From the NCBI GenBank assembly GCA_963969395.1, contig OZ017805.1:11966001-12030000 (forward strand): a stretch of DNA of 64,000 nucleotides, in the 5' to 3' direction. This document shows positions 1-61,528 of the stretch, one piece after another. The notes below the pieces were generated by a model. The model was given only the letters and a program-made list of their open reading frames with translations, did no database searches and was not told the DNA's origin. Source of the stretch: Pseudoscleropodium purum (taxonomy: Eukaryota; Streptophyta; Bryopsida; Hypnales; Brachytheciaceae). Both the position numbers and the translations under genes were made by a program. How positions within the stretch are numbered: the stretch's first letter is position 1; each line of letters opens with the position of its first letter.

Positions 1-282
1 TTTTGATTTTGATTTTTCTTATATTGCAATTGCGATTCAATAGAGTTGTATATCACTATTTATGTAAAAACTAAAATATGAAATATATTTTTAATTTTTT
101 TGTTGAATTTCATTTTGATTTAGAAACAAAATCACTTTAAAATCCAGCGAGATGTATATCATCAATAAACAAACAATTTTATAATAAAATGATTGAAGAA
201 ACCATTGTTATTTGTCAACATGAGCTCCATATATCATGAGCAACTAAACAATCAAACATCTAAATTCACATCTCCACAATTC

Positions 283-3200
283 CTATGGACGCCAATCCAC
301 ATCTCCTTTAACCTCAGCCCCACTACTCTCTCCTGCAGCTTTCCGTTCAAAATCTTCATTATCGAAGTCATCTTCATTGTTGGAATCAAGTATTGTTGTC
401 TCTTTCAAGTCTTCTCTTGAAGTAGGTTTACTCCCTTCTTTCGAATTTAATTTTTCTTTTTTTACTTTGACAGAACGATTAAAGGCTTTTTGAATAGGAA
501 CCTTTCTTTTCTTTCTATTTGACAAAGTAGCAACATTTTCATCAAGAGGGGTCCTATTCTTCACTGGAGAGATAGCAAAAGGTTGCATTTCTCTTTTCGC
601 TTTCACGTTACTCGATTCTTGAACCATCAATCTCGATGTAGGGTCGACATGTCCATGAACAGTTATCTCCACTTTGGCTTTCTTTTGAAGTAATAGAGTG
701 CCGTTTGTTGATTTGATGGGTTCTTGCGCCATTCCTTTTCCTAAAATGCGAGCACGCAAAGATGCCAATGGCATCCAATCACTATCCGTATTACTTAGGC
801 TTGTAGGAGATGACGCTACTTTCCGTAGATTACCGCCTCTAGAAATTTCTTTGGAAATGTTCATTAGGCGTTTTCCATATCCAAAGCTTCGAGAATCATT
901 CAATCGTGTGCTAACAAACTTCAACGGTATTGGTGGAAGAGCACTAGATCTCGGTACTTCAAAAATTGACTTCATTGGCTCCTTTCCTTTATCACTCTTC
1001 ACAATTGCCGAATTTGTGACTGCCATCCCAAGTGAATCATTATTTTTCTGTACCGCAATATTTGGTTCCCCCTCATCACCACTATTGTTGCCCACATTTT
1101 TTGAAACGTCCACCTCCATGACCACATCTTCTCTTCTGTCGTTTCCTTGCACTACATTTAATGCCACAAATGGAGATTGAGAAATTAAAACTTCTTCATT
1201 TCTCCCATCATTACCAATAGCATTCTCATTGATTTTTACCTCTTTGGCAATAGCGTTTGCCTTTTCCAATAGAATGTTTTCGCTATTCGACAATTCCATT
1301 CCATTGCAATATGCAGCTAAAGGAGGTAGATTCTCCTATACCTCTACATTGTCCACGTCTTCACAAAAAGTATATGCATCGTTTGCATTGTCGGGAACGA
1401 CATCCTTGCAGTTTAGATGATAATCATGCGTATCATTCACCAAATCGGGAAAGTCTTCCATAACGTCTTCATCTCCCCATGCTGTCGCACGATTGAAGTC
1501 ATCTCCGCCATCTACAACTGAAAGGGCCCTTTCCAAATCCTCGTCATCATCGTCATCATCGTCTTCTAACGTCGGCCTATCTGAATCTTCTGATTCCATC
1601 GAATCCACATTATCATTATACCATTTTTTTTCATCTTTTTCCTTTGATGCGTTTAATACTTTGGAATTGGTATATACGTACACCAAATCCGCTGCTCTCT
1701 CTGGCTTCAATTTATTTCGAGATTTGTTGTGAACAAAAGAATAGTTGTTCCAATTCCGTTCACATGAAGATGATGACACCAGTTGAGCCAATATCCTCTT
1801 CGCTAATGGAGCTATAAACTTGCCACATGCACCTTCAAAATCCCACCAAGCATGCGCGAACAACATTTGTTCTTCTGGATTCAACATATTGTGGAATGGA
1901 GGTTCTTTGTGCCGAAAAGCCACAAATTCCTTCACCACTGTTGCATATTCATCCAGTTTACATATTCTCTCCAAAGCTTTCTAATATCCTGACATTGCAT
2001 CTGCGTCATACGCTAGCTCTTTGTCATGAAAAAGGTATGGATTCAAAAGAGTTGCGACTGATTGGAGATCATTGTTCACCATTCTTCTTCGGGCATAAAA
2101 AAACTGTACCAATGGAATTACAAGTTCTTCTAGCAAACAACATGGTGGACTTTGTAATCCGTTCACATGTTTCTTTAACTTCCTCATGATATGCAACACC
2201 TTCCCCATGCATGATGATTTTGAATCCAAATTGCGGAATGCACATATGATTGGTTCAACCATCTCCACATAATTGATGGACCGATTCCAAAACTGGTCAT
2301 CAAGAACAATTTTCTTCACCACTAAGGCCAAGTCTTTTGGTTGGACTTTGGCTCCACATTTCTTTTTGAGAGTGTGTACATACTCAACCCATTGCGGATC
2401 TAGCACCGTTTGTTCCAATGCTCCTCTCAATTTTGTTAAACGCTCCATCATAATAAATTTAGAGGCGAACCTTGTATCCCCAAGCATCAAGAGACCAAGA
2501 TTTGGTGAATACTTTCGCAATAGAACTAGCGGCATATGTCTCTTCCTGATAAATTTAGCTACAAGAACTCTTTTATCGAATTTGGAAGCAATTCATTTCT
2601 ATGCAGCCCAATCCTTCAACATCAAATTCAATGCATATACCACGCACCCTTGGTAAAAAATATGAGGATATTTTGCAGATATTACATCCCATGCGGACGG
2701 ATTCATGGGAGCATTATCCGTAGTTATTAACACGATGTTCTTGGACCCCACTTGTTCAATGAACTTTTCCAACACAGCTGCCAAGTACTCCGCATTTTTT
2801 TTCACAACCACTTATATCCACAGATCCAAGAAATTCTTCACCTGCGGATGATACAAGCATGGCATTGATGAGAGGTCGATTAGTCACGGAGCTCCATCCA
2901 TCAATGGACAATGTTGCTCCAAATTTTCGAATGCTATCTTCGGTCCGTGCATTCAACTGTGTCTGAATATTGGTCTTCACCTCATTCAACAATTTGTACC
3001 GAAAGTCGTGGTATGAAGGAGGAATGTATGGCCTATCGAACGCAGCCGTTTTCTTCACTATTTCCTTAAAAGTTGGATTTCGAGCCACGGAAAATGGTAT
3101 GTTTGTCGAATAAAAAAAATTTGCCTACACTGAATGTAATTTGTGTCTATGACCTTCTTCAAACCCATTCACTAAGTTGCCTTGCCTCTGAGGCCTAGAA

Positions 3201-3631
3201 CTTGATGCCTTCGGGATTTCACGTTCACCAGAAGCTTCTGTACTCAAAGTCACTTCAGTTGTGGCACATACCATTGATATCAATTCTTTGGACGCTGGAC
3301 AAGAGTCTTCGTAGTCAGAATGTGACATAGCCTTTCCGGCTGAAAACTCTTGGACATCTGAAGGGCCAGGGTTGCCATCCACATTGTCCATTACAACGGG
3401 TTTTGGAAAAACTCCTTCGCAATGCCGAAATAAATCTCGAACTGCCATTGGTAATCGTAGACAAAGACTCACCCCTTTATCACGTATACTTGTAGGCCCA
3501 GGATAGCCTAAGTGGCTCAACATACGGCCGAGCTTCCTTGCCATGACCGCCTTGCAAAGCCTACATTCTACTTTACCATCCTGTGGCACACTATACCAAG
3601 GAGAAAAATCCCTTGTCGGTTTGGCCCCCAT
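283..3631 (-). pseudogene. hAT-family transposase (BED, DUF659, hAT dimerisation), decayed
   Basis: This is a cut-and-paste DNA transposase gene of the plant hAT superfamily, acting in the nucleus. A BED-type zinc finger (two Cys and a His at about 3512-3565) comes first. The DUF659/RNase H-like core at about 3030-2640 has the LSIDGWSSV and TTDNAP motifs. The dimerisation region at about 1810-1660 has SSCERNW and RNKLKPERAADLVYV. An acidic run and a long basic tail of over 300 residues follow. The first in-frame ATG is at 3629-3631. The frame is broken by TAG at 3125, about 2597, about 1978 and 1333, by a TGA near 2591, and by a one-base slip in an A8 tract near 2800. The conserved His of the CxxH motif is Tyr (CVVYALN). 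The missing pieces all read in register, so no large exon is lost. It was probably the element's own transposase. Confidence 0.88.
1537..1570 (-). repeat. GAT/GAC microsatellite coding poly-Asp
   Basis: A run of TCATCATCG-type triplets reads as seven Asp residues on the minus strand inside the transposase pseudogene. A similar run occurs on the plus strand at 9108-9126 in the third gene of the element. Confidence 0.8.
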
Positions 3632-3944
3632 ACTAACAAGTGTATGTTTTACCCCAATTTCAAAAGAAACCAATAGAATGTTTTAAATTTGAAACCCACA
3701 ACGTGACAATGTATACAATATCAATGAAATTAGTCATACAAAGCTTTAAAAATCAAAGCCCCCCCGTTCACCGGATTATGCATTACCAAGCAAGAAACAC
3801 AATAAATTGAAGCTTATAGCCCTTGGAAATCTTAGCGTTCGGTTTTTCAAGAGTGAATGCAAAAGCTTCTCTTCTAACATTTATAATCCCCTCCAGAAAA
3901 TTTAGGGTTCATTTTTTAGGGTTTACATTCAAAAACAACCAACG

Positions 3945-4081
3945 GCGCGAACAGGGCTGAAGCGGATGGGAGGACGGGGCGGTTGGTCAGACGGGTCGGA
4001 CACGGCGGTCGGACGCGGCAGATAAGGCGTTTGGACGAAGCGGTCAAGCGGACAAACCAGACGGGGCGGACGGGGTGGACT
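3945..4081. repeat. GC-rich GGCGGAC array upstream of transposase gene
   Basis: A sharp GC-rich island in AT-rich DNA, made of imperfect GACGGGGCGGACGG-type units. It begins about 310 bases upstream of the transposase ATG. The same motif forms the arrays before the other three genes and the right tip of the element, so it may be promoter DNA, transposase-binding DNA, or both. Confidence 0.7.
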
Positions 4082-4382
4082 TCGCATTGCCATTAGTCAT
4101 TCGAAAATTTTATATTGTTATGTAATTTGAATGTTACACAATAAAAAATGAATGCATCCACGTAAAATAAGATGTACATATAAAAATATTTTTTTATGCA
4201 AATGAAAATATAACATCTTTATATATAAATATATATGTATAAACAAAATACATGAAAACATAGTTCCAATATCACTATTGAATTCTATACGATCTTTTTA
4301 AGATCTAAATCTTTCACATTCTTTTTTGTTTTTAAACAATGAAAGGACCATTGTTTTTAAAAAACAAAATTCTGCTCAAATC
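4082..4382. other. AT-rich spacer
   Basis: The stretch between the GC array and the end of the RING gene is AT-rich with no open frame or repeat that I recognise. It would contain the 3' end of the RING-gene transcript. Confidence 0.5.
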
Positions 4383-7267
4383 CTACTTTCCACTGGATGG
4401 ACCACTACCTTCTCCCAAAACAAAAGGAAAATCTGCTGTACCGAGGAGTTTAGCAGATGATTGACGAGTTGACCGTTGTTGACTTGGACGGACTATTCGC
4501 CCTTTAGATTGAACTTCGATGTCCACCTTATGAAATTGTTTCTTGGTTTCCGGAGAGAAGTCATCGTCCTCTTCACACTTCCTTTTTTGTTTTCTTTTCG
4601 GTGATAAATCGACTTCGTCTGCCTTCAAGGTTCTCAAGTTGCTCTCCACATGATCTACCATCGCTTGAACAACTTCATCATCTCCTTTCCCTTGCCATAC
4701 TGTGAGGCAGTCTCCATCCAATAGGAAAGCCTTTTAATGCCCTATAATATCGCCAATGCGCCTATCAAATGCTGCTGCCACATCAGCACGAACTTTTGCA
4801 GCCTCTTATAACTTCGACAATAGAAGGGCCCTACCTACGAGGGTGTGGTCGTATGCCTTATACTGCTCATCGAACTCTTTTCCATGGTTCACCTCCACCC
4901 AACTGTCTTCTGGTCCTCTCTCCACTTTTTTATCTGGAAAACGAAAGAACTTTTCGTGTTGCAAGCTCCAGTGTCCTCCCATGTTGTGACAAAACATTTT
5001 ACGGGCTGCGTCATCTACGATTCCTTGAGCCCGCAATTCCACCTCTCTATTGTGAGTCATCCACACATCCAAATCCAATGGTTGCTGAGATTCCTCGTAC
5101 AAATCATGCCTCTGTTCATTTGCATTCCATCGGATTGGCTTCCCCCAATGTTGATAATTTTGGAATTTGTACGGCGCTTGATCAAGAGGAAGATTCCAAC
5201 GATTGTACTGGTGGCCTAGAGGCATAGCTTCCAAGATACCAAACATTTCGTAAAACCTAGCACTCAATGGACTACGACACTCGGCACACACCGAACGAAT
5301 GAGTGATGCTTTCACAATGCAAGTGACATGGAAAGTGTGGCAACATTGGCCCATGGTTACCGCACCTTTTGGTCCGAAGAGGCCTTGGCAAAGGCTACAA
5401 CAACCATCCAAGATTGGAGAGGCTGGATCACAAGCATGCACCACTCGCTTGTCTTTCACATTGATGTATGCTAAAAGTGTGTTGTAAGGGACCCATCCTT
5501 CCTCTACTTCCAAGGCCCAATTGGTGGGTGGAGCTTGGTCCTTCTATGTGTGGTTTAACCGCTCAAACATGGCATTCATGTCTCCCCAACATGTGATCTC
5601 CGTATATCCCTTAGAAGGATGTTGGTCAACATAATCTTGAACCAACTCAAAGAGCTTTGAATGGCATCGCAATTTTCATTCGACTCCATTACCAATGTTT
5701 GAAGACCTGCCATTGCTCGAGATACTACAGAGGGTCTGTCTTGGAGTCTTTGTACCCATGCTAACCATCGAGACTCCAAGCCGCTAGATGGCATAAACTT
5801 CTTCAAATCCAAGTACAATTGCAATCGATTCAACTTGGATTCAACGATTCCTTTTGCTTCAATTGCCTCCTCCAATTTATGCTTCAACTCTTCAAAGTCA
5901 CAACTCTCCGTTTGCGTCTCCGCATTCACGTAAACGGATGAAAGCTTTTCCATTGATGGTTGTTGTGTCGCTTTTAACATGCTCATGTTCTGACTTTCTT
6001 GTACATTCACAATGGCAGGGTTGTCGCTTGCTTCGGCCTTATCAAAAGGAAAAGAGAGCTTATCTTCACTCTCTTAAGTCTCTTGACTGTCTTCGAGTAC
6101 AATCACTAGTGAGATTACAACCTCACTTGGATTTTTGGAGGTCCCTTGTAATTCTGCAATCCGTTTACGCATCTTCATCAACTCCTCCATTTGCCTTGAT
6201 GATTGTTGATTTAAATGTTTAACCTCACTCTCCAAAGTCTTTAATTTCAACTCCAACACTTTGCACCTTGCTTCCACTCCTGCAAGGTCAACAATTTTTT
6301 TCTCATATTCCACCAATTGTAGTATGTGAACATCTCTTTCTTCGAAAAGTGGTCCGAAAGTCTTCGTGAGATTCTGAAATGCTATAGCACCTTTCAACAT
6401 CTCTGGTGCTATTAAAGAAAACTCCTTGGCCAAATTCATAAAAGTCGGAGCAGCTTGCGCTAAAAATTCAGCTGACATTGTCATCTTGAAAGCTGTATCA
6501 AGTATATGTGCAACATTCTTTGAATCTACAAGTGGACTCATTGGAACAGTAGTAGCACCATCATCGGGGTTAGACGATCTACCTATTTCTTCATGAAGGT
6601 TAGCAAACAGAACCGAGAGCTTCAAAAGATTTTCCAATTGTTTTGGATTGGACATGTCTTGCAAGGTTCGATGTAGAGGACTCGGCAATGCTACTGTAAA
6701 CGGGAACTCCTTCGCCCGCCTTTTACGCTCGGAACTCCATAATGAGGATATATTATCAATCGTCACGCCTTGTCCACGAGGCGTATGTACTTTGTCTTCT
6801 AAACTTAACGCTGGACTAGATTCAATACCTTGATGCATAGGCGGAGATTTGTAGACCAAACTATCAAAACAATTGTTGGCTATCAGACTATCAATTGTAG
6901 CATTAGCCTTTGCCACTTTCTCCGCCAAGACTTCGTCTACTTTACTTTTTGAAGTTTCCCCGCGTTCCGTGCAAACCTTGCCTTCGTTTACAAACTCCGT
7001 TTGCATTTGTGCCGCAACATTTGGTGTAAAGGTCAAACGCGTTGGAGCTGTGGAAAAGACTTCACCCTACTGCGCCTCTACATCTTTCTCCACATCTTTC
7101 TCTATTTGTTTATCTATTTTTTGGCAACAAATGGAGAAACCATCTTTGTCTATATTTGCACATGCACTCTTATTTGATTGATGAAGAATAGATCTATGAA
7201 ATATATAATCATTGATTTGTTCATGTTGATTTATATAATATATTTTATGTATATATATATATATCAT
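4383..7267 (-). pseudogene. Coiled-coil RING-H2 protein carried by the hAT element, decayed
   Basis: A long minus-strand frame of about 950 codons with few breaks. The N-terminal two thirds is helical and coiled-coil-like (heptad-rich Leu/Lys/Glu around 6350-6130 and 5930-5800). A RING-H2 finger at 5277-5399 follows, with spacing C-x2-C-x14-C-x-H-x2-H-x2-C-x10-C-x2-C. A basic, Ser/Gln-rich tail ends it. RING-H2 proteins usually act as E3 ubiquitin ligases. Breaks are TAG at 7067 and about 5540, TAA near 6074, 4806 and 4740, and one frameshift near 5655. Most stops can arise from CAG or CAA by one C-to-T change. The true start is uncertain: the first ATG at 7267 lies in a TA repeat and the next in-frame ATG is near 7008. 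I do not recognise the family outside the RING. Confidence 0.7.
5277..5399 (-). other. RING-H2 finger segment
   Basis: All eight metal ligands are present: Cys39, Cys42, Cys57, His59, His62, Cys65, Cys76 and Cys79, counted from the methionine at 5513. The RING is therefore better preserved than the frame that carries it. Confidence 0.8.
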
Positions 7268-7736
7268 TAAAGGAGTATGGAAGACAAGATTGACAGATTG
7301 TGTTCGAATGTTGTTGATTTTGAAATGATTTAGTACTATATCATTTATAAGAATATTATAATAGTTTTATGTTATAATATTCCTAAAACAATTGCAACAA
7401 ATATTAAAATACATGCTATGTTAGGTTTGTTAACCTACCAATTGTTCATTAATAGACATAATTGAGTAGCCCCCTTAAATGAAACATTCAATATCTAATA
7501 TCTTACAATCCAAATGGTGGATTCGTCTAAAATTTTTTCCACATTTTTTCCAACTAATTTACTACAAGATCCTCTGGTTACATTGGCCCTAAAGTATTTT
7601 TCTTCTAAGACTTGATATTTGCACTACTATTGGCAGTTTTGAAGTGTTTTTAGTGAAAAAAACTTTAGGGGTTAAACATCTATACCGTGAGATTTTGAAA
7701 AAAGAACAATTTCCTTCATTAGGTTTAGGGTTTAAG
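7268..7736. other. AT-rich spacer with TA microsatellite
   Basis: AT-rich DNA between the RING gene and the next GC array, with a short TA microsatellite near 7250-7263. I see no coding sequence. Confidence 0.5.
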
Positions 7737-7900
7737 ATGAGCCGTCCGCCCTGTCCGCCCCATCCACCACGATATCCGTCCGCCCGTCCTCCGTCCGCCT
7801 TGTTCGCTCGATCTGGAGTCCGCCCTATTCGGCCCGACCGCCCCATCCGCCCCGATACCCGTCCGCTCCATCCTCTGTCCGCCCAGTCCGCCCCGTCCGC

Positions 7901-8236
7901 CAGGGTTGACAGGACGTCCGGACGCGGACGCTGTGTCCGCAACGTCCGCTGACATTCACGTCCTGGTAAACACAGCGTCCGCCTGTCCCCCGTCCACTTG
8001 TCTGCCCGTCCATCCGCCCGATTACGGCCGTCCGATCGACGCGCGGACTGATCTGGTCCGCACGATTTGGGCGTCCACCTCGGGCGGTCGGGCCGTCCGC
8101 CCCGCCCCGCCCCGCCCCGCCCCGCCCGTCCGCTTTCCGACGGCGGTCGGGACGCTGCGTCCGTTAGCGTCCGTGCGTCCGGACGTCCGGAAAACGGATG
8201 CTATTTTGGGGCGAATGTTGAAATTCGTCAACCTTG
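7901..8236. mobile_element. Short hAT-like element M1 (336 bp)
   Basis: Ends are CAGGGTTGAC and GTCAACCTTG. The flanking 8 bases are CCGTCCGC and CCATCCGC, a target duplication with one change. It carries no gene. The interior is GTCCG-rich with a core beginning CGGCCGTCCGATCGACGCG that M2 and M4 share. It is inserted in the GC array of the large element. Confidence 0.85.
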
Positions 8237-8335
8237 CCATCCGCCCTGATATCCATCCGCCTCGGTACGGCCGTCCGATTGACACGCGGACTGATGTGGT
8301 CCGCATGATCTGGACGTCCGCCTCGGGGCGTCCGC

Positions 8336-8346
8336 ATATATATATG
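8336..8346 (+). promoter_or_regulatory. TATA-like box before the BED-like gene
   Basis: CATATATATATGG is followed at once by GGGAGGCGGACGGC. The kinase gene has the same arrangement: a TTATAAGA box at 10742 followed by GGGCAGACGGGCC. Two genes of the element thus share a TATA plus GGACGG layout. Confidence 0.45.
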
Positions 8347-8569
8347 GGGAGGCGGACGGCTCATTCCGAACAATCGTTTTCTTTTGGAGTGGGCGGACCA
8401 GTGCATTGGAAGCTCTACGCGCGCCTTCCGCTTTGAGTGAATGATTGTTGTGGCATTGTTACAAATTTTCACAAAGTTCACGCTTGTAAAATTTTAATTA
8501 ATTAATTAAATCAAAATTTTGGTTCTTAAGCTTTCTAATTGTTTCATTCTCTTTGCTTCAGCTTCATAA

Positions 8570-9829
8570 TGTAGTAAGATAGAACACCCAAAAAAAATAG
8601 TCGAAAGGGAAGACCCCAATTGTTCGATTGGGATGCTTAGGCCGATCCATTGTGCATGGGTGAACCGGGATGGGAAGAGGAACCAACAAGAGTGGGATTG
8701 CTCAATGTGCAAGAAGTATGTAAAAATGACTCACATTCAAAAACTTTGGTGACGTGAACGTGTAGAGCACCAAGCGCCACGTTGGGAAGGATAAATGTCT
8801 ACGTGCCAAAGTAAGCACTTCAAACAACGATACACACAAGTGCATCGAGTTCTTGGCATTAAAAGCGCCAAACCAAATATAATGAATTATAATGTTATGG
8901 CAATGGTTTGGGCAGAGATTGTACTCCACAAGGACGTGGATTGGCGTACCGCTACAGGTCGCAATGTGGAGAACTATACGCGCACGGATGCCGTTATAGA
9001 TACATAGTGGAGGGGCGCAAGCGATTGCATGCCAGAGTGGTCCAATCGAGGTTATCTACAACAACCTTCAGTTGTTTTACGAGATGCTGAAGATGCGTGG
9101 ACAGATGACGATGATGACGATGATATGCAAGCGCCTATCACATTTGGAGTTAGACACGAGTGGGTAGAAGAACGAGAACAAATTGAATTCGAATAACAAA
9201 TGCAAGAGGCAACACGTAGAAGCCTTCAAGATCGTGGACGAGAAGATAGACATGGTGGGTCCTACGGACATGAACATGGAACGCGAGGATCTGAACAAGG
9301 AAGAGATGGTTCATACTCTGGTTACGATCCTCAAAATAGATATGAAGGTGGAAGAGGGAACTATGGATCCACGCATTATGGTGGTTCAAGTGCAGTTGGT
9401 TCTCGTTATGGCACTTCCCCTGAAATTGGCTCTCAAGGTGGGACAGGTAGCTATGGCAACACGCACTATGGTAGGTCTACTGAATCTGGTTCATATTATA
9501 CAACGCCCACTCAAGTGGGCTCCGAAGGGAGTGGAGGAAGCCATGTAACCCCGTAGTATAGTTGCTCTCTTCACGGAAGCGCCCAATACTATCCGAATTC
9601 AACTAGAAGTGATTCATATGGGCATCATGGGACCTCTTATTACGGGGCTTCAAATGAAAGAGTACCAGAGCCTACTACTCCGGTTCCTCCTCCCACTTTT
9701 GGAGGTTCAAATTATGAACAAGGAGGTACACCGAGTGGATATCACTGAAACTACGGAGGTGGTCCATTCATTGGAGTACAAACAAGAGGCAGCGGTCAAT
9801 AATTTGAGTCCGATTCAGATTCCGAATAA
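8570..9829 (+). pseudogene. BED-like protein with Tyr/Gly/Ser-rich tail, decayed and internally shortened
   Basis: The N-terminal part has a BED-like finger: NRDGKRNQQEWDCSMCKKYV at about 8655-8715, with trailing His residues. Stops and frame changes follow up to about 9000. From about 9005 one frame gives an acidic run (seven Asp at about 9108-9126). A low-complexity tail rich in Tyr, Gly, Ser and Thr follows at 9200-9830, with repeats such as GNYGSTHYGG and GSYGNTHYGR. The tail stays in one frame to TAA at 9827-9829, with stops only near 9190, 9555, 9747 and 9799. A BED finger followed by an acidic end suggests a shortened second hAT transposase, but I see no DUF659 core. The tail resembles prion-like, phase-separating domains by composition only. 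Confidence 0.5.
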
Positions 9830-10425
9830 AAAAACATACAAGTATATAGTGAGCATGTATTTGCTCGATTTTCTCATTTTTACTCTCACGACAAGTATAG
9901 AGCACTAGATTGGTAGAAGTAGTACAAAATTTTAAATGAATAGAACAATTTTGAACAACAATTTTGTTCACTTTTTCAAAAAGTGTTGTGTAATAGTGTA
10001 CACCAAGTATGTATGTAGGCAAGCATATTGTTGAAGACATCATTGTATTATTTTATAATAGCGTTGATGTATACGACTATAAACGACTTTGATAAATAAT
10101 AAAAATATGAAGAAGAAATGTAATTTTGTAAGAGCTATATTATGTCTATTTTTGAATTCAGCATTCGAGGTTAAATATGTACTAGCATGGTGTGTATTTT
10201 GAAATTATTGTTGTGTGTTTATTACATTTAGAAACTCGTAAATGATATAAATGTATTTCTAATTAATTTATGAAAGATTAAATTATTTGAATATTTGAAA
10301 TTTTTTTATTTTTCATTCAATGATTGCTATAAACTAAAATGATTTCTTATTCGTATGAAGAAATGCCCAAATTAGACAATTAGTGGTTCTTCTTTAGATT
10401 CTATTTTCAAATATGAAAACTAAAT
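9830..10425. other. AT-rich spacer
   Basis: No open frame or repeat of note. The AT-rich sequence separates the third gene's end from the next GC array. Confidence 0.5.
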
Positions 10426-10769
10426 CGGATCGGGCGGACGCTTGATTTGTCCTCCCGTGCCCGCCCGATCGCGCGGACGTGGCTGTAGGGTTTCGGGAAG
10501 GCGAACGGTTGATGCGTCCGCCAGCTGCGGCCCGTCCAATCAAGCGGACGGTTTGGGGCCATCCGATGGGGCGGACGGGCTGTCCGCCGCGACTCGTCGG
10601 ATCGGGTGGACGGCAGATTTGTCCGCTCGTGGCCGTCCGATTGGGCGGACGGGGCTCGAGGGTTTTGGGGAGGCGGACGACTAATGCGTCCGCCACCCCC
10701 GGACCGTCCGATCGGGCGGATGGTTTGGGGCCGTCCACGCCTTATAAGATGGGCAGACGGGCCGTCCAC
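10426..10769. repeat. Two 172-bp GC-rich direct repeats before the kinase gene
   Basis: Unit 1 is 10426-10597 and unit 2 is 10598-10769. Both start CGGATCGGG, contain GGGTTT or GGGTTTTGGGGAGGC and GCGTCCGCC in the same order, and end in CGGTTTGGGGCC-like and GGGCxGTCC sequence. They are full of GGCGGACGG units. The second copy runs into a TATA-like box, so the repeat behaves like a doubled promoter. Confidence 0.75.
10742..10749 (+). promoter_or_regulatory. TATA-like box before the kinase-like gene
   Basis: TTATAAGA lies at the end of the second 172-bp repeat, about 220 bases upstream of the ATG at 10965. GGGCAGACGGGCC follows it, as after the box at 8336. Confidence 0.45.
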
Positions 10770-10964
10770 ATTGTCACTTTTGCTTTACCCCTTGTGAATG
10801 CAAGGTGGAGCGGAAAGCTTGGTGGTTCATCCTCCATTGGCTCTTTTCCGAGGCAAGGCAAAAGTGGTTTATTGAGGCCCCCTTGTTGCCAATTTTTTGG
10901 ACATTTGCGCGTGAATTCAATTTCAAATTAAAAAATTTGATCTATATCAATTTCATTTGTCACG

Positions 10965-12452
10965 ATGCCGAAGGGGAAGAAGAAGGTTGCGAAGCTTAAA
11001 CATGGAGAGGGACCATCGAACTTGGAAGTAGCTCGCCAAAGTCCTTCGGAAGAATGCTAGAAATTCATGATCGAGCGCATCGTTCAATTTTTTGAATCGG
11101 AAACAACATTGTCTTTATACAATAAGTACATCAGATATCAAGAAGAGTGCGTGTCTAAATTCAAGGTAGACATGACACAGATGTTGTTGGATGCATTGAA
11201 TGTGACGAAGTGGCATGACGAAATGCATAAAACGTACTTCACTAAATGTTTGGAGAACAAGGTTCATGACGCTTTGTAGAATTCCAAAGTCATTTTGGTT
11301 AAATATGGCAAGGAATATCGACCCAATGACGCCCAGTTTGAAGTGATTCTAAAAGCAGACTTGTTTAGGGGGCGATGTGCTCCATTCGCCAAAAAGCACA
11401 ATCGAGTTGGTTCAATTGGTTGGTGGAAAAGCAATGATGGAGTTGCTGAAGCGAAAAGGACCAAACGACACCTCATAGCACTTCCAAATACAGCACGTGT
11501 GATTCCTGTTGATAATAGAACGATGAGAGGTGGATATGCAACGATTCGAAAGGTTCGTATTGAAGGATGTCCAGGAATGCTTCCTCATTGGGAGTTTGCG
11601 GCAAAGAAATCCATTCACCACCAAACTTGACCCGATCTTACAAAATTAGAACATCAAAACGAATCAATGGCTATTCGAATTCCACACGCGGGTGTGATAC
11701 GGTTTGCTGCGGTGCACGGAACGACGTGTGAAGGTTATGCGTATTGATGAAATGGTGGAACTTTTCGACAAATGTTGAATATGGATAAGGACTATCCAGA
11801 CAACATTCAAATCCGTTTGATGTATACGAATCCAACCGAAGAGGAGGTTGTAAAAGCTCACCGTTTAGGGCGATATCGGAAGAAGCGTACGGAGTTGACA
11901 TGGGCGTTTATGCATATAATGTATGCAATGCATCTTGCTGGACATTTGCACAATGATCTTTCTCCGGACAACATCTTGTTGCATTTTCCAGAGGATGAGT
12001 CACGTGTGTATATTGGGGTTTGCGATTGGGGCATGACCACCTTAGCTTCTCAGCCAATGAAGTCTTTGTACACATTCACATCAACAGATGAATTGAAACA
12101 GACTTTGCAGAGGAGATGGTAGGTGGATCCACGTATTGCATATTTGCATAAAGCAGGTGCAGATGTGGAAGTCATTCCAATGTATTCACGTAAGTCGGAA
12201 GAGTATGCCATTCGAAAAATTGCTCGGCGGATGAATGAAAACAACATGTCAGAGGTGTATTTCAACGTGCTACTTAAAACACCTAGTGCGACACAATTTG
12301 CCTTTCATGACTTTGCAAAAGTATTTCATGCTTATTTGAAGCGCATTTCTTCGAAGACTGACGATGAAAATACTAGTTTGGCCCATGTGATTACGCGATT
12401 TTCTAATAAATATCGTTGGCCGATGCCAAATGAACATTTCCACCATTTATAG
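10965..12452 (+). pseudogene. Protein-kinase-like gene carried by the hAT element, broken only by stops
   Basis: A single frame of 495 codons runs from ATG (10965) to TAG (12450) with no frameshift. Kinase landmarks are in order: a Gly-rich loop (MRGGYATIRKV, 11523-11555), the VAxK-type lysine (FAAKK, Lys at 11604), a hinge-like YxxNGGTFRQML (11742), the catalytic loop HLHNDLSPDNILL (Asp at 11955) and DWG in place of DFG (Asp at 12024). A basic start (MPKGKKKVAKLK) could direct it to the nucleus. In-frame stops are TAG near 11058, TAG at 11277, TGA at 11628, TGA TGA at 11745-11750 and TAG near 12120. Each fits one transition: CAG to TAG, CGA to TGA, and TGG TGG to TGA TGA in a site expected to read YWWNGG. 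The HRD arginine is Asn. It was probably a real kinase or kinase-like cargo gene; substrate unknown. Confidence 0.8.
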
Positions 12453-13555
12453 TAGATTGGTAGTGCAGAAGTAGTAGTTGAATAGGTTATATAGGCATTA
12501 AAAATTAGTTTAGAAATATAGAGTTGGAATAAAAAAAATTATATGTGCAATTAGCCAAATGTGCACACTATATGATATATGTAAATTTTTTAGTCCACAA
12601 TGTATGGTATTCTATATTAAATTCAATACATTTTACCCATATTGATTATGTTTGTATTTGTGTTGATCTTGATTTTTTGAATAGTATATATATATATTTG
12701 AAGTCACAAACTTTTTTAGTTTGCCTTTTGAAAATGAATTGGAATTTTTTCATAGTTTCAAGACTATCATGGACTCATGGTCAAACTTTATAATCTTTCA
12801 ACTTATAAGAGACATTGTTTTAATTTTTTTTCCTATGTGGTTGAATCCCTAGAGGACCAACATGTGTTTTTGGACAATATATAATTTTTGGGCATACGTG
12901 TGACTATAGATTTGCATATTTGGGCTGAAGTTTTTTAATAGAATGTGGGGATGAGGAATATCTTATATATGCACAAATTTCATAACATTTGAAAATATGA
13001 GTCAAAAGTTATTGCATAGTATCTTGTTTGTCACTTCAAAGTTTAAACGCTAATATCTTGCAATCTACATGGTGGAAATTTCTGAAATTTTTTCCACATA
13101 CTCTCAAATATATTAATACAAGATCATACCGTCACATCTGTCAAAAAATGATATTTTTCAAAATGTTGGTACTCGTACAAAAAAATGGTAGTTTGGGAGC
13201 ATTTTTAAAGAGAATAGAATCAAGGACCTTTAGGGTTAAAACTCACAGTTTTAAACTTGAAATAATATGAAATTAAGTATTCAATGAATGCATTTGAAAA
13301 TATATTTATTTTAGTTTTTAGTTTCTTAGTAGCCTTTTGCATTACAAATTTAGAAGTTTAAATTTTTTGGATATAAGTATATAACATGTCTACTTTGAAT
13401 TAGTAGGGTTACATTTCCCAAAAAATTAATATAACTCATGAAAATGGGTTTTTTTCCCTTTAATTCTAAGGAAACATTTTTTTAAATTTTTTTTATAACA
13501 AATCGCGAACCATTGCACTTCATTTGATATTTAATTGTTTAAGGATTAAGGGAGT
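12453..13555. other. AT-rich non-coding part of the large element
   Basis: AT-rich sequence between the kinase-like gene and the right GC arm. Short open frames here have no recognisable motif. A TA microsatellite lies near 12686-12697. Confidence 0.5.
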
Positions 13556-13755
13556 GACCGCGGGGTAGTTTGGATAGGGCGGTCGGGGGAAACAGGGCGG
13601 TCGAAGCAGACGGGGCGGACGGGGGGACAGGCAGACGGGGTAGACGGGGGGACAAGCGAACGAGGCGGTCCGGCGGATGCTGTATCCGCCGGGACCGCGA
13701 ATGTCAGCGGACGCTGCGAACACAACATCCGCATCCGAACGTCCTGTCAACCCTA
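13556..13755. repeat. Right terminal arm of the large hAT element
   Basis: A GC-rich arm of GGGCGGTCGG and GACGGGG units ends in GTCCTGTCAACCCTA. The last ten bases match the ends of the short elements. Read in reverse, it begins TAGGGTTGACAGGACG. It abuts repeat copy C exactly where C lacks its first part, so the large element probably inserted into C. Confidence 0.7.
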
Positions 13756-16700
13756 TACGCTACACTACAACTATAATAGAAATAGTCAGTTTTCGGGTTG
13801 CTAAAACCTTAAGTAACATTAAAAAAACAAATCCGATACGGATCCGGGATCAGAATAAGCATCGGATTTCCCAAACCTATATTCTAAACTTCCGGTCTAA
13901 GAAACTAGGAGACCCTTATGGAAACGGTCATCTACTTGTTCTCCACTGGGAACTGTTGGCTGCGTATTGGGTACTTGAATTCACCGCCACTCTTTTTTTT
14001 CCCTCTTTACTTGTTGAACTTGATAAATGTATAGTTGAGAGAAAGAATGGTGAGTTAATGACCAAAATAGGCGAGACGGAAGGAGTAGTACCAGATTAGG
14101 TTTCAAAGTTGTCGGTGATTCATGGCAGTAGTTGCCGACCCGGATATATGCAAATCTGGAATTGTAGCCTAGATGGTTTGTTCAACTATCCTTTTTAATC
14201 TGAGTCATAGAGCGCAGTTAGAAGAAGATCTCATGTGTATCCGGTGTGTTGGGTTGTTAGATAGGCCGTGGAGCATAAAGAACAAGGAGATGATTTAAGA
14301 ACTCATTTACGAAGTTCCAAACTAATACGAGTTGATAGTGAGAGGTCAACCTATAGCTTGAACAGAAGACATTTGGATGGATGTCTATTCATTTCAAAAG
14401 AATGGGCTCAGATTAGCCAAAAGAGTAGACAAGTACATGACCGGAAAGTTCCGGAGTCAAGCCCACTCAAAGGACGGTTTTGCCATTAGCGATTATAAAA
14501 ACGAGAGGCATAGACAGGTATTGAATATCCTTATTCTAATTTTGTATTCGGAAAAGCCTACCAACATTACGATCACGGTGGCCAATACCATTTTTGGGGC
14601 TTTTGAGGACTAGATCATCCATTGGGGAAGAGTGATTCAAGGAGTTGTGGATAAGCTAGTAGAGCATGTAGGCTGAGCAAAGCACAACCCTATCACTCCA
14701 TATCTATTCTACCTCTATCACCACAAGGAGGTCTTGAGTGTCAGGGAGATGATTGAGTACAACACTGGAGTTGAGATCCTAAAGTACAGCCTCATGGAAG
14801 AATTGGAGAAGGAGAAGAAGGAACCCAAAGAAGAGCAACCGAAAGAGGAAGAAGAAGTAGTTGACCAGAAATGAAGGAAGTCCACCGATCCGGCCACACG
14901 GGGGAAGGCGCCAACACCAAAATAGGAGGAACCGATACCAAATCCGGAACATCCCCAAGAGCTTGAATTCTTTGAAGCCGGAGTCTAATGGATGTAGTAG
15001 GCGAAACAAATGTATGGCGACTTGGAGGATCACATGATTCTTATCACAAACGAGTTCAAGATAGAGCTAGACCAAATTATGGAGGAGATTCGGAAATACC
15101 TGAATCCAGAAGAGTTCCGACAAAAGGAGGAACAAATTCGGAAGCTGGAGGAGGAAAGGAATAGCTTCAAGTCCCAATTCGAGTGGACGGAGGGGGAGTT
15201 GAATGTGGCGAGACGGAAGGAGACGAAGGCTCTTCAGCTCATCTACAACCTTAAAGAATTGGTCATGGTTCTAGAACATACAATGATCCGAGCTGAACTC
15301 TACATCGCTTGGTTGGCAAAGGATGGGTACATGACCGATCCAGAATGGTAAAGATCCTGGTCGACTTTGAAGCCCGAATGAGGATTGCTTTGAAGGACAT
15401 GTAGAAGTTGCCGGGGTACTTGGATTCGGAATGGGCCATCAACTTAGAAGGGTTTCCGGAAGTCCTCAAGAGCATATTCCGGGATACTCCAATTCGACAA
15501 ACTTCGATCCAACAGGCTTTGAGTGTCCCAATCCAACTACAATTGGAGGGACTGAAGTCTATCCTCACCCTAGTTGCAAGACCCTTAAGTAGCCAAATAC
15601 GGACTCCATCAAGACCAACGAGACCTGAGCCGAAGAAAGGGACGAGAAGGAAGTCTATTCCGATAGAATAAGCGCTTTTTGTCCTGATTTTCCCACCACC
15701 TGGGAAAGTCACGACCAAAAAGTTTATGGTACTCGAATTCATGGTTCATAGCAATCTCAATGCAAGAATTGGAATAATGACAAATCCGGCTCGATCTCAT
15801 CCGCAAGATTTCTCTCATATGTAGTAGTCGACGCCAAAACAGAATCGTACTAAGATTGGATTCAGTGAATCACTACAAGTCAAGGATCCAGAGATTGAGA
15901 GTTAGAAGAAGAAGTGCTGAAGTTTGGATCTAAGGAAGAGACAAAATCAGAAGACTCGCCTCCCAAGGTTTCATGAAAGCCCCAAACTCAATCATCAACG
16001 AAGAATATGCCAATGAAAGCTTTGGTGAAGATTCTGGGCAGTCAAAGTAGGAGCAGTTCCAAGAAGGCACAGTGGGGTAGATAGAGCACAAGTAATTAGG
16101 TAGGATTTTTATCCAAAACGGGATGTCTGAGCATGGATCTAGGTTCTGAATCATTCTAGGGATTCCAGTTTTCTCGAGACAGTTGGACTGTGGATGTTCC
16201 GATTATCCCGGGTTGTTCACTGGTTGGTTGCCCTAATTTCCGGGATGCCTTTTTGGCTTTTTAAGCATTGACTTTGGTTTTGATTTTGGTTTTTAAAGGT
16301 GGGGAAGTTTGTTACCCTCTCATTCCATCCTAGTAGTTATTTTGTTGTATTTTATTTCTTTCTTTAATTTGAGTCATTGGGCAAACCTTTTGGCTCCAAT
16401 CGTGTATCCGGATTGTGTTGGTTTGTTGTTTAAATGTTGAGGTGTGAGAAGGATGGGTGAGGAGGAATCCGGATTTCAGATAACTTGGTCGGACTAAGGG
16501 AGTACTATTTCTAATGATATTAGATACAAGACGAGGAAGCTGCACATGGTGCCTTTAATCTATAGGAATGATAATCTGGTTTTTAGTGAAGAGTGGTGTG
16601 AGTACAGATCCAAAATTAGAAACAATTTTGTATGGAGATTAGCAACCATTAAAGGGAACTCTCACTCACCAGAAGGTCTACCAAACTTAAGATCCATCTT

Positions 16701-17363: not shown

Positions 17364-17679
17364 CAGGGTTGACAAGACGTCCGGACGCAGACGCTGTGTC
17401 CGCAGCGTCCGTTGACATTCGCGTCCTAGCGGACGCAGCGTACACCTGTCCCCCGTCCGCCTATCCGCCCGTCCGTCCACCCGATTACGGCCGTCCGATC
17501 GACGCGTGGACTGATCTGGTCCGCACGATCTGGGTGTCCGCCTTGGGCGGTCGGGCCGTCCGCCCCGCCCGTCTGCTTTCCGACGGCGGTCGGGACGCTG
17601 TGTCCACTAGCGTCCGTGCGTCCGGACGTCCGGAAAACGGACGCTATTTTGGGACGGACGTTGAAATTCGTCAACCCTG
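17364..17679. mobile_element. Short hAT-like element M2 (316 bp)
   Basis: Ends are CAGGGTTGAC and GTCAACCCTG. The flanks CGTAACAG and CATAACAG are an 8-bp duplication with one change. The interior is GTCCG-rich and closely related to M1 and M4. It carries no gene; open frames through it are compositional. Confidence 0.9.
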
Positions 17680-17718: not shown

Positions 17719-17927
17719 CAGGGTTGACAAGACGGTTGGACGTCCGGATGCGGACGCTGTGTCCGCAACGTCCATTGACATTCGCGGACGCCGTCCGCCC
17801 CGCCCGTCCACCCCGTCTGTCCGCCTTCCGACAGCGGGAGGAACGCTGTGTCCGTTGGCGTCCGTGAGGACGGACCTCCGGGTTACAAACGCTACATTGG
17901 GGCGGACGTACTGATTTGTCAACCTTG
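17719..17927. mobile_element. Short hAT-like element M3 (209 bp)
   Basis: Ends are CAGGGTTGAC and GTCAACCTTG, with a perfect 8-bp target duplication TCTATAGA on both sides. It is the type II form, with a GGACGTACTGATTT subterminal sequence shared with M5 and M6. It lies only 39 bases from M2. Confidence 0.93.
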
Positions 17928-19842: not shown

Positions 19843-20106
19843 TAGGGTTGACACGACGTCCGAACGCGGACGCAGCGTCCGCCCCGTCCGCCCGTCCATC
19901 CGCCCAATTACAGCCGTCCGATCGACGCGCGGACTGATCTGGTCCGCACGATCTGGGCGTCCGCCCCGTCCGTCCACCCCGCCCCGCCCGTCCGCTCTCC
20001 GACGGCGATCGGGACGCTGCGTCCGCTAGCGTCCGTGCGTCCGGACGTCCGGACGTCTGGAAAATGGACGCTATTTTGGGACGGACGTTGAGATTCGTCA
20101 ACCCTG
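19843..20106. mobile_element. Short hAT-like element M4 (264 bp)
   Basis: Ends are TAGGGTTGAC and GTCAACCCTG, with a perfect 8-bp duplication ATTGTAAG. It is type I, like M1 and M2, with the core CCGTCCGATCGACGCGCGGA. The first base of its left end is T rather than C. Confidence 0.93.
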
Positions 20107-31365: not shown

Positions 31366-31620
31366 TGTCGCAGCTTAGAATTTTGATTTTCTTAGTATAC
31401 ACCAAAATAGGAACGGAAACTAGTCATTAGCTAACCGGATCCGATTAGGTGGGGAAGGAAAACTCAGAATTAGCACGGAACGTGAAGTAGTGGGCTTCTT
31501 GGATCTAATCCGGTCAGGAGTAACTAACGACGAAAACGGAATGTAACACGGATTAGGTCTAGGACCGGATGATGATGATGAACCGGATTCATGATGACAA
31601 ACCGGAAAGGGTCCAGGGAC

Positions 31621-31629
31621 TATATAAGG
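31621..31629 (+). promoter_or_regulatory. TATA box for the copy A gene
   Basis: TATATAAGG lies about 190 bases before the ATG at 31811. Copy B keeps TATAAAAGG at the same place (43573-43581 on the minus strand). A one-codon upstream frame (ATG TGA at 31799) precedes the gene. Confidence 0.6.
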
Positions 31630-31810
31630 AGGAGCTTTCACTGTTGCACCCCCTTTTAGAAACTCGACCTTGAGCGCGCGCGGTTGAGTTTTTGTCGTTT
31701 GTGCGTCTGTGCGTTTGTGTTTTGTCTGTTTTGCTTCCGGTTGAGATCGGAGAGAGGAAGTGAGGAACGGGACGTGCGGCTAGGAGAGAGTGAGGTAGAT
31801 GTGAGTGGGA

Positions 31811-33469
31811 ATGCCTCAGCTACGTAGGTCGAGACAAGCGAGTCCCTCTGGAGGCGAGGTGAAGCTCCGGAAAGTCATTCCGGTTATTCCCTCCACAGAG
31901 CCGGAAAAGGCTGAACTCATGGATGATCTCAAATCCATGGGTTGCGTAGGGTTTGCCGAGAAACCTTGGGGTTTTAGGGAGGAGAGAATGGTCAAGGAGC
32001 TCCTCGGAAAGCTGTCCAACCAGTTTGACAACACTGTGAGGGGAGCTCCCGTCAGCTGGAACGAGGGGATGTGGAGAGCGGTTTACGGTTTCCGGGCAGG
32101 AGGTTTGGGAATGGCGAGCCGGAAGGATGAGTTTGTCCGAGGGAAGTTCAAGGGAGCCGTCAACCCGAAGGACGGATACGCGGTCGAGGATTGCTTGGAT
32201 GACCGACACCGTCGGCTCCTGCAATTCCTGGTTCCGGTTCTTCACCCGGAAAAGCCGACCAGGGTGACGATCACCCTCGGCAATACCATTTTCGGTGCCC
32301 TCAGTGGTACCCGGAAAGTGGATTGGGCACGGATCATTTCCGATCTCGTGGCCCAGCTTGTTAGTAGGGTTGGGAAGAAAAGGGCCACTCCAGTGTGCCC
32401 TTACCTCTTCCACCTCTATCGGGAGAACCAAGTCCTCACCGATACGGAGGAGAGGGCGTGGAAGACGCAGGAAGTGCTCCTGAAGTATGGGGAGTCGGAG
32501 ACAGATGACGAGGCCGAATCCGATTCCGGGTCAGACCGGGAGTCCAGCGAGGAAGAGGAGGAGCCGATGCCGCCGATCAAGCGACAGAAGTTGACGCCTC
32601 CACACAAGCGCGGGACGCCTCCCGGTCAAGACAAACCGGCCCCGGAGGAGAAATCAGAAGCCGAGAAGACCAATTCCGGGGGAGATCCGGATATGCAAGA
32701 TCCGTTCAACGGTCTGATCAACGTCCTCTGCAACATCAGGGCAGATTGGGAGGTCAAGCACAGGATGCTTGCGGCAATCGGCAAGTTGGTGGGTGCTGCA
32801 CCGGACAGCAACTTGGCGGAACAAGTGGCGCAATGCATCACGAATCCGGAAGAGACCCGGAAGCAGGAAGCCGAGATCCGCCGGTTGCAGGAGGAGGTAG
32901 ATAAACTGAAGGCAACACTTTTTGCCTATCAGGAAGACGTGACGGCCGCTCGGGAGATGGCGGAGGAGACTCGGAAGGTGGCCGAGCAGATCAAGGCGGT
33001 CCTGGGAGAGACCGGAACGGCAGCGGCCAAAGCGAAGCTCTTCGACGAGAAGATCCACGAAGAGAAGAAACTATCCGGTTCCCGGATGGTCCGGATTCTC
33101 GCGGACTTCGCCGAGCAGGTGGAGACGGCAATGGTGGAGGGGCGGAAGGCTGCGGACCGGATCGAGGAGAGCAGCCGGAAGCTGACCGGAGCGACGTGCG
33201 ACAAAGGTATTCACCTTTCAGATATCTCACTACCGGACCTCTTTCCGGATGCAACTATGGCGAAGGACAGGAAGGATTGGACTCCTGAGTCCAAGAAGTC
33301 TGCACGGACTGGGACTCCGGGCACGAGACCGGATATCACCATCGACCTGGAGTCTCCACCCGGACCGAATCCTGCGGAGGGGGAACGGGTCCGGAATTTG
33401 AGTGAAGTTTTCGAGGAGCTAGTCCCGGAGACCGGAAGCCCGACGATAGGATCTAGAGTTGTAGGGTAG
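31811..33469 (+). CDS. Gag-like / plant-transposon-type protein of the TGTCGC repeat (552 aa)
   Basis: The intact frame starts at ATG 31811 (the GTG six bases earlier is not a plausible plant start). Residues 1-220 form a conserved globular domain with PWGFREERMVKELL, VYGFRAGGLGMASRK, PTRVTITLGNTIFGALSG and CPYLFHLYRENQVLT. Its layout weakly resembles the 'putative plant transposon protein' domain found beside gypsy-type elements. Residues 230-260 are acidic and Ser-rich, 260-310 basic and Pro-rich, and about 345-480 a long coiled coil. There is no CCHC knuckle, protease or polymerase motif. Codon use is GC-rich compared with the surroundings. A role in particle assembly or in nucleic-acid binding is inference. 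Four other copies in the window keep the same domain order, so the protein was under selection or recently spread. Confidence 0.72.
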   Translation: MPQLRRSRQASPSGGEVKLRKVIPVIPSTEPEKAELMDDLKSMGCVGFAEKPWGFREERMVKELLGKLSNQFDNTVRGAPVSWNEGMWRAVYGFRAGGLGMASRKDEFVRGKFKGAVNPKDGYAVEDCLDDRHRRLLQFLVPVLHPEKPTRVTITLGNTIFGALSGTRKVDWARIISDLVAQLVSRVGKKRATPVCPYLFHLYRENQVLTDTEERAWKTQEVLLKYGESETDDEAESDSGSDRESSEEEEEPMPPIKRQKLTPPHKRGTPPGQDKPAPEEKSEAEKTNSGGDPDMQDPFNGLINVLCNIRADWEVKHRMLAAIGKLVGAAPDSNLAEQVAQCITNPEETRKQEAEIRRLQEEVDKLKATLFAYQEDVTAAREMAEETRKVAEQIKAVLGETGTAAAKAKLFDEKIHEEKKLSGSRMVRILADFAEQVETAMVEGRKAADRIEESSRKLTGATCDKGIHLSDISLPDLFPDATMAKDRKDWTPESKKSARTGTPGTRPDITIDLESPPGPNPAEGERVRNLSEVFEELVPETGSPTIGSRVVG

Positions 33470-33621
33470 ATAGGATTTTAATTTCAGTTAGGAGTAGGAG
33501 CGGATCCGGATCCGAATCCGGCTCAACAGTATTAGATTAGACCGGAAAATTAGATTAGGGTGGCGGCGGACCCCCACGGGTTTTCCGCTCCTTTTTGTGC
33601 TTTTAGGGTTTTGACCCTTTG

Positions 33622-33629
33622 TATATAAA
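33622..33629 (+). promoter_or_regulatory. Second TATA box, downstream of the copy A gene
   Basis: TATATAAA lies 153 bases after the gene's stop codon and is followed by a pyrimidine-rich leader (CTTCTATTCTCTTCG near 33682). Copy B keeps it (41575-41584, minus strand). In an LTR this would be the promoter that starts R, with the gene lying in U3. Confidence 0.55.
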
Positions 33630-43393: not shown

Positions 43394-43572
43394 TCCCACT
43401 CACATCTACCTCACTCTCTCCTAGCCGCACGTCCCGTTCCTCACTTCCTCTCTCCGATCTCAACCGGAATTAAAACGAACAGAACACAAATGCACAGACG
43501 CACAAACGACAAAAACTCAATCGTGCGCTCAAGGTCGAGTTTCTAAAAGGGGGTGCAACAGTGAAAGCTCCT

Positions 43573-43581
43573 CCTTTTATA
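43573..43581 (-). promoter_or_regulatory. TATA box for the copy B gene
   Basis: TATAAAAGG on the minus strand, at the same place as TATATAAGG in copy A. Confidence 0.55.
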
Positions 43582-60893: not shown

Positions 60894-61528
60894 CAGGGTT
60901 GACTAGGGTTGACAAGACGGTCGGACGTCTGGGACGTTCGGACGCGGACGTTGTGTCCGCAGCGTCCGCTGACATTCGCGGACGCCATCCGCCCCGTCCG
61001 CCCTATCCATTTGCCCCGTTCGTCCGCCTTCCGACGACGAGCGGGACGTTGCATCCGCTGGCGTCCGTGAGGACGAACGTCCGGGTTACGGACACTATTT
61101 TAGGGCGGACGTACTGATTTGTTAACCCTAGGGTTGATAGGACGGTTGGACGTCCGGGACGTCCGGACGCGGACGCTATGTCCGCAGCGTCCGCCGAGAC
61201 CGCCCGTCCGCTTCGACCGCCCTGTTTTAGCTTTTACATAAATAGTGATAAACAACTCTATTGAATCGCAATTGCAATATAAGAAAAATCCAAATCCAAA
61301 TGACTTCACTCTCAATCTCTCATTGGTGAAAACAATCAAAACAAAAAACCCAAAACGGGTTTTCTAAGCCGCCCCGTCCGTCCTTCCTGTCCGCCCCGTC
61401 CCGCCCTGCTCGTCCGCCTTTCCACGGCGGGCAGGATGTTGCGTCCGTTGGCGTCTGTGAGGACGGAGGTCCGAACGTCCGGGTTACGAACGCTATTTTG
61501 GGGCGGACATACTGATTTGTCAACCCTA
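60894..61528. mobile_element. Short hAT-like element M5, deletion derivative of the large element
   Basis: Ends are CAGGGTTGAC and GTCAACCCTA, with a perfect 8-bp duplication TTGATGAG. Without the nested M6 it is about 400 bp. Its left arm (61139-61224) copies the right tip of the large element (13556-13755 reversed, shared TTCGACCGCCCTGTTT). Its middle (61225-61303) copies window positions 1-75 reversed. Its right arm is GC-rich again. This is the structure of a Ds-type internal deletion. Confidence 0.9.
60904..61130. mobile_element. Short hAT-like element M6 nested in the terminal repeat of M5
   Basis: Ends are TAGGGTTGAC and GTTAACCCTA, 227 bp. The 8-bp duplication is GGGTTGAC and GGGTTGAT, which is part of M5's own terminal inverted repeat. 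It is type II, closely related to M3. Confidence 0.87.

Follow-up and report, generated by a model that had tools for sequence, protein, structure and literature searches.

A Large hAT-Type Transposon with Kinase and RING Genes in the Moss Pseudoscleropodium purum, Probably One of an Abundant Modular Family

The first 13,755 positions of a 64,000-nucleotide stretch of the moss Pseudoscleropodium purum (GenBank assembly GCA_963969395.1, contig OZ017805.1, positions 11,966,001 to 12,030,000 of the forward strand; hereafter the window) very probably belong to one insertion of a large transposon of the hAT superfamily that comes from an abundant, modular, multi-gene family. Members of this superfamily move by cut and paste, carried out by their transposase. 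The insertion contains genes for a transposase, a RING-H2 protein, a zinc-finger-like protein with a low-complexity tail (G3) and a protein kinase (Table 1). The genome searched for further copies comprises 313 Mb in 52 contigs, in which the window is G000:C49:11966001-12030000.

A Single Insertion

The full hAT-type element measures 13,953 bp, of which 198 bp including the left tip lie outside the window. When the sequence to the left of position 1 was read, as a first-pass annotation of this DNA had advised, the missing tip CAGGATTGATGAATC was found at G000:C49:11965803 (L011:1803), 198 bp from window base 1; the right tip is TAGGGTTGAC. An 8-bp target-site duplication, TACGCTAC, stands before the left tip and after the right one with an 8/8 match. 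The flanks of both tips turned out to be one host repeat with TACGCTAC at its break, and a reverse-strand copy of this repeat near 59,990 is uninterrupted and has a single unduplicated TACGCTAC. Since the same TACGCTAC flanks both tips in one host repeat, the four genes arrived together in a single hAT insertion of 13,953 bp. All four genes of the window copy moved as one hAT unit, which the first-pass annotation had supposed and which the two tips and the duplication show directly. The terminal inverted repeat (TIR) pattern [T/C]AGNGNNG, as given in a plant hAT survey (PMC6027215), is fitted by the right tip (TAGGGTTG) and by other copies (CAGGGTTG); the left tip of the window copy (CAGGATTG) departs from it at one place.

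Two or more elements lying side by side or nested could mimic a single one, and a miniature inverted-repeat transposable element (MITE) with both tips does sit at 7901-8236, while the same genes also occur in smaller tip-bounded elements. However, the outer tips share their 8-bp duplication within one host repeat, for which the chance is about 1 in 65,000 (4 to the 8th), and the tip-like 9-11-mers inside the element, the MITE's own excepted, lack the terminal pattern. We regard such an arrangement as very unlikely. Two candidate inner boundaries were rejected: positions 7901 and 8236 are both ends of the MITE, and the direct repeat 7495/13050, considered as the end of a second element, has the same similarity within one element in the RING-kinase copies described below.

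Independent support for one element comes from an internal-deletion derivative elsewhere in the window, because it has its own duplication, TTGATGAG, on both flanks, its left part resembles the right end of the element and its right part resembles window 1-76. Positions 61203-61227 of this derivative are the reverse complement of 13590-13614 with 24/25 matches (the next best in the window being 18/25), and its interior at 61225-61300 matches window 1-76, reverse-complemented, at 95%. Closer to the tip such matches cease to be diagnostic, as MITEs there also reach up to 24/25 against the right end of the element. The derivative thus holds both ends after an internal deletion and ties the two tips to one element, as the first reading of this DNA had claimed.

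Table 1. Features of the element and its derivative (window coordinates).
Feature	Position	Strand	Basis or remark
hAT-type element	1..13755 (+198 bp left, L011:1803-2000)		Tips and TACGCTAC on both sides
hAT transposase, broken by stops and frameshift	286..3673	-	Pfam; relatives up to 1123 aa; motif positions
Transposase C-terminal tail ending SSGAEVKGDxD[YW], no separate gene	286..1335	-	Full-length relatives run through it
GC island between transposase and RING modules	3923..4102		Element coordinates minus 198
RING-H2 gene with stops and a frameshift; coiled coil in the middle, N-terminus short by about 196 residues	4383..7123	-	Eight RING ligands present
Module X remnant, no long frame, joined to RING by 2.9-kb deletion	7088..7866		Comparison with RING-kinase copies
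GC island including MITE, upstream of G3, CGTCCGC cluster	7723..8362		GC and motif scan
336-bp MITE of same tip family, inserted in element	7901..8236		Tips, 7/8 duplication CCGTCCGC/CCATCCGC, 89-93% to MITE 17364-17679
G3: N-terminal domain, then acidic and Gly/Ser/Tyr-rich low-complexity tail; broken	8578..9826	+	Sequence comparison
GC island upstream of kinase, 8 CGTCCGC sites	10423..10782		GC and motif scan
Protein kinase, 495 codons, 6 stops; helical N-domain and kinase domain	10965..12452	+	RGGYATI, AAKK, HNDLSPDN, CDWG motifs present
Right terminal GC island	13543..13742		GC scan
Right tip TAGGGTTGAC	13746..13755	-	Sequence match
Target-site duplication TACGCTAC	13756..13763		Other copy outside window, L011:1795-1802
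Internal-deletion derivative with both ends of element type	60894..61528		Own duplication and end matches; nested MITE 60904-61130

Genes of the Element

The transposase, read through its stops, matches the Pfam families DUF659 (E 2.8e-29) and Dimer_Tnp_hAT (E 4.9e-7), and a putative BED-like finger at its N-terminus gives a weak match (zf-BED E 0.026, 15 bits vs. a cut-off of 20.6). The D, D and E motifs, which we take to hold the catalytic residues, lie at 2911-2888, 2727-2707 and 1776-1750 of the window, respectively, and are found in 13, 13 and 12 of 15 relatives. The protein ends in a tail of some 350 residues, the last of which are conserved, and the motif SSGAEVKGDxD[YW] is present in 12/15 relatives. 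A 338-aa open reading frame at 1299-283 was considered as a separate gene and rejected, since full-length relatives continue through it as the transposase tail. Two short motifs in this tail (301-327 and 541-582, minus strand), PFAxSPxK...PLD and the C-terminal SSGAEVKGDxD[YW], recur in several relatives; they resemble the consensus of a cyclin-dependent kinase (CDK) site and of a SUMO site, respectively, and could possibly be handles for host enzymes.

The element kinase has the two-lobe kinase fold. Its catalytic Lys and Glu, the Asp and Asn of the catalytic loop and the metal-binding Asp are invariant in 32 aligned relatives and kept in the window copy, which has HND for HRD and DWG for DFG. 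The window protein does not reach the Pfam Pkinase gathering score (20.8 vs. 31.7 bits); 29/32 relatives match Pkinase at E 0.001 or better. All 34 relatives of at least 470 aa contain DW[G/A] and WWNG, and 31 of these 34 the strict catalytic-loop pattern. Named relatives (P0023 and P0038) come from the moss Ceratodon purpureus. P0038 represents a cluster of 126 member sequences, and its locus tag, KC19_VG, suggests a location on the V sex chromosome.

The eight C3H2C3 zinc ligands are present in the window RING protein, which appears to be ubiquitin-ligase-like, and in 15/15 relatives. Its predicted structure (predicted local distance difference test score, pLDDT, 41.8) was not used. The N-terminal domain of G3 is a paralogue of the N-terminal domain of the RING protein, and the label "BED-like" that G3 had received in the first-pass annotation is replaced accordingly.

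Other Copies and Their Layouts

Only the best candidates were scored in the genome (86 of 1541 for the kinase, 41 of 1659 for RING and 43 of 1302 for the transposase), so that the counts are lower bounds: at least 86 kinase, 41 RING and 43 transposase loci. Internal stops are lacking in 36/86 kinase, 1/41 RING and 5/43 transposase loci. A scored kinase lies within 15 kb of 10/43 transposase and 6/41 RING loci, vs. chance expectations of 0.35 and 0.34, respectively, and no scored kinase lies within this distance of the other 33 transposase and 35 RING loci. In 16/16 linked pairs, transposase-kinase as well as RING-kinase, one gene is on the plus and the other on the minus strand.

A further eight copies were retrieved: all six RING loci for which a scored kinase lay no more than 15 kb away, and two of the ten transposase-kinase loci. 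The presence of a kinase in all eight thus reflects the choice. hAT tips were found in every one of them and duplications of 7-8/8 in six. The RING-kinase copies contain RING and kinase in all six cases and G3 in 5/6; five of them measure 11,651-11,904 bp, and the one without G3 measures 9,722 bp. Their duplications match at 8/8, 8/8, 8/8, 7/8, 2/8 and 1/8, the 2/8 belonging to the copy without G3. The transposase was not found in any of the six, and a tip stands about 0.5 kb beyond RING, at the place expected for the transposase. The two transposase-kinase copies (9,646 and 9,903 bp; duplications 8/8 and 7/8) were found to have neither RING nor G3. The transposase, RING, G3 and kinase genes therefore also move in smaller combinations. 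The first-pass annotation had named tips between these genes in other copies as a sign of separate elements; this stood insofar as smaller combinations do travel separately, and it did not for the window copy, which is still one unit.

Decay, GC Islands and Tip Sites

The window copy is dead. It has stops, frameshifts in three genes (transposase, RING and G3) and a nested MITE, and relative to the RING-kinase copies it has lost 2.9 kb by deletion, which took away the RING N-terminus and most of a stretch named module X. The many in-frame stops within otherwise good frames could also be explained by an intact copy in which TAG, TAA and TGA code for amino acids. However, the in-frame stops of the four genes align with W, K, E, R, Q and other residues in relatives, and other copies are open under the standard code; recoding was rejected on these mixed residues, and its probability is negligible.

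In 9/9 elements, islands with a GC content of 60% or more mark the tips and separate the gene modules. The motif CGTCCGC occurs 20 times in that part of the element which lies in the window, its MITE not counted, and is absent elsewhere in the window once MITEs and the derivative are set aside. Module X is common to both shorter layouts and has a length of about 2.4-2.8 kb. In the RING-kinase copies (L021:1710-4069, L024:1911-4270) it is 2.4 kb long and AT-rich, with 2-5% divergence across both shorter layouts; among ten RING-kinase pairs its divergence is 2.5% (Jukes-Cantor), below that of the RING silent or replacement sites of the same copies. Module X was considered as a gene and no long frame common to the copies read was found; a regulatory role, a spliced gene or a mere shortage of CpG may account for it.

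Exact CAGGGTTGAC tip sites number 3361+3359 (6,720) genome-wide vs. 146+118 (264) for the reversed control, and the window has 16 tip sites with at most one mismatch vs. 3.25 expected. The modular element family probably accounts for many of the thousands of genomic tip sites. MITEs that share the element's tips probably form a very large family as well. The MITEs of the window lie at 7901-8236, 17364-17679, 17719-17927, 19843-20106 and 60904-61130, with duplications of 7/8 or 8/8 in all five.

Origin of the Four-Gene Layout and Maintenance of the Genes

Beyond this genome, transposase and RING matches were found on equal-size contigs of other sources (17,649 and 8,444 bp), as were transposase and kinase matches (27,639 bp). 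Under a jitter null for contigs of at least 5 kb, 0.0087 size coincidences are expected, and three arose in 0/20,000 simulations. No relative was found in viral contigs scanned with the kinase, transposase and RING alignments, nor in the genome-contig scan with the kinase; the genome-contig scan with the transposase gave two short matches on records titled bacterial or archaeal metagenome-assembled genomes, probably contaminants. The plasmid scan gave no match, nor did the tRNA and Rfam scans.

Several observations weigh against reading the window copy as a regular member of a modular family that exchanges functional genes at its GC islands. First, a scored RING locus within 15 kb of the transposase was found in 0/43 scored loci among other copies, so that the window copy could be a recombinant of the two shorter layouts. 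Second, the layout junctions fall in GC islands, but the transposase-kinase copies cease to match module X about 0.4 kb before the island, and the 2.9-kb deletion of the window copy lies outside any GC island. Third, the other-source data argue strongly that the gene pairs share contigs there, and this is based on equal size, not on the contig name. Fourth, the copies within the genome show no clear constraint on the genes: the ratio of 0-fold to 4-fold sites is 0.67-1.07 for all sites and 0.96-1.68 without CpG sites, with no clear silent excess. The ratios of nonsynonymous to synonymous divergence (dN/dS, NG86) between copies are 0.42 for the kinase (36 pairs), 0.63 for RING (21), 0.66 for G3 (15) and 0.68 for the transposase (3); dN/dS by itself was no longer taken as a sign of selection once CpG sites had been masked.

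It is quite possible that the window copy is a chimaera, in which recombination within a GC island brought the left tip and transposase of a transposase-kinase element together with a RING-G3-kinase element and the product was then transposed as a unit. If so, the four-gene layout would be secondary, not ancestral or standard. Up to about base 4,220, counted from its own left end, the window element (left tip and transposase) is 93% identical to the transposase-kinase copies, and from about base 4,223 on its RING, G3 and kinase blocks are 91-96% identical to the RING-kinase copies; the junction falls in a GC island, and the absence of RING beside the other scored transposases fits as well. However, the scored transposase loci are only the best candidates, and in two cases elsewhere the transposase and RING matches are on contigs of equal size. 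On the 8,444-bp contig they would fill 6,456 bp, which suggests that their adjacency is old.

The case for gene function rests on the catalytic and zinc residues conserved between diverged families; the within-genome comparison shows no constraint. In diverged relatives, with identities to the first sequence of 28-80% for the kinase and 31-71% for RING, these residues are kept, and many of these relatives have full-length frames. Transposons often pick up gene pieces, and RING and kinase could be captured host genes travelling as passive passengers, as might be expected from the unconstrained CpG-masked ratios and from the single RING locus among 41 that is free of internal stops. The residues kept in diverged relatives, the numerous scored copies of all three genes and the opposite strands in every linked pair speak against this explanation, which we consider unlikely.

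Palindromic Pairs

Pairs of gene matches with the same or nearly the same score lie on opposite strands 11-27 kb apart, for example at G000 C46:298689/325330, C44:13712546/13728076, C1:12222392/12239544 and C49:12644663/12671475. The window itself has an inverted pair of 94-97% identity, 31366-34652 with 40553-43836, holding frames of 554 codons (31805-33466, plus strand) and 531 codons (41807-43399, minus strand). No clear Pfam family was found for the 554-codon frame. Such opposite-strand pairs are large palindromes, either real or produced by the assembly.

Comparison with Known Transposons

The element resembles the known hATs Ac, Tam3 and hobo in its short CAGGG-type TIR, 8-bp duplication, DUF659 transposase with a C-terminal dimerisation domain and short tip-bounded relatives. 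It differs from them in its three extra genes, a transposase tail (about 350 residues) that is conserved at its end, the interchangeable modules and its 14-kb length, vs. 110-7,144 bp for the 276 sequences of the plant survey, in which the longest consensus (7,144 bp) comes from a green alga (PMC6027215, 2018). The same survey reports no hAT found in the moss Physcomitrella (PMC6027215). In the open-licence literature, no hAT element with a kinase and RING and no giant or moss hAT of this kind was found, and a word search of one moss genome paper (PMC9247546) gave no match; Repbase and the non-open literature lay outside that search.

Among other eukaryotic transposons, VANDAL belongs to the Mutator-like superfamily and is not known to carry a kinase or RING; Lanisha has been reported from the moss Ceratodon purpureus; and the Starships use a tyrosine recombinase, whereas the element described here has a hAT transposase. 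Fungal hAT7 and IS3EU elements are likewise eukaryotic DNA transposons with accessory enzyme genes including a kinase, and order and orientation are conserved in some families; however, they are fungal and carry TET/JBP and an alpha-kinase instead of the present kinase with RING, and the hAT7 duplication is 7 bp (PMC12730594). VANDAL elements share an element-encoded accessory protein, VANC, and short motifs clustered in non-coding regions; VANC has an anti-silencing role, towards which the present element shows motif clustering (PMC10398659). The fungal elements and VANDAL are precedents for DNA transposons with accessory genes. Lanisha elements are also cut-and-paste DNA transposons, but they belong to the CMCT clade and have 2-5 bp duplications and mostly 5'-CA..TG-3' termini, in contrast to the 8 bp and hAT transposase found here (PMC12730594). 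The Starships are similar as giant cargo-carrying eukaryotic transposons and differ in being fungal (PMC11623301).

Proposed Mechanism and Implications

Judging by position, the transposase may bind the CGTCCGC-rich GC islands and cut at the tips, and the same islands may double as gene promoters and as sites of module deletion or exchange. The transposase-kinase copies are probably the autonomous forms, and the RING-kinase copies would be moved in trans. Most likely, the kinase and the RING-H2 protein work on behalf of the element and are not plant cargo: they would modify the transposase, or host proteins involved in silencing and the cell cycle. We tentatively propose that mosses host a large, old, modular hAT family in which a kinase and a RING E3 ligase are standard equipment controlling silencing, the cell cycle or the transposase, and in which modules are exchanged at GC islands that are tips, promoters and recombination joints at once.

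Plant hATs are textbook small one-gene transposons. Gene annotation would be affected by the present family, since element kinases and RING proteins can pass for host genes. Its recurring GC islands hint at how transposons might physically gain and lose genes. With a kinase and a ubiquitin-ligase-like gene enclosed by the same tips, and with many open kinase copies in one genome, the family would offer a direct system in which to study possible interference of a DNA transposon with signalling or silencing in its host.

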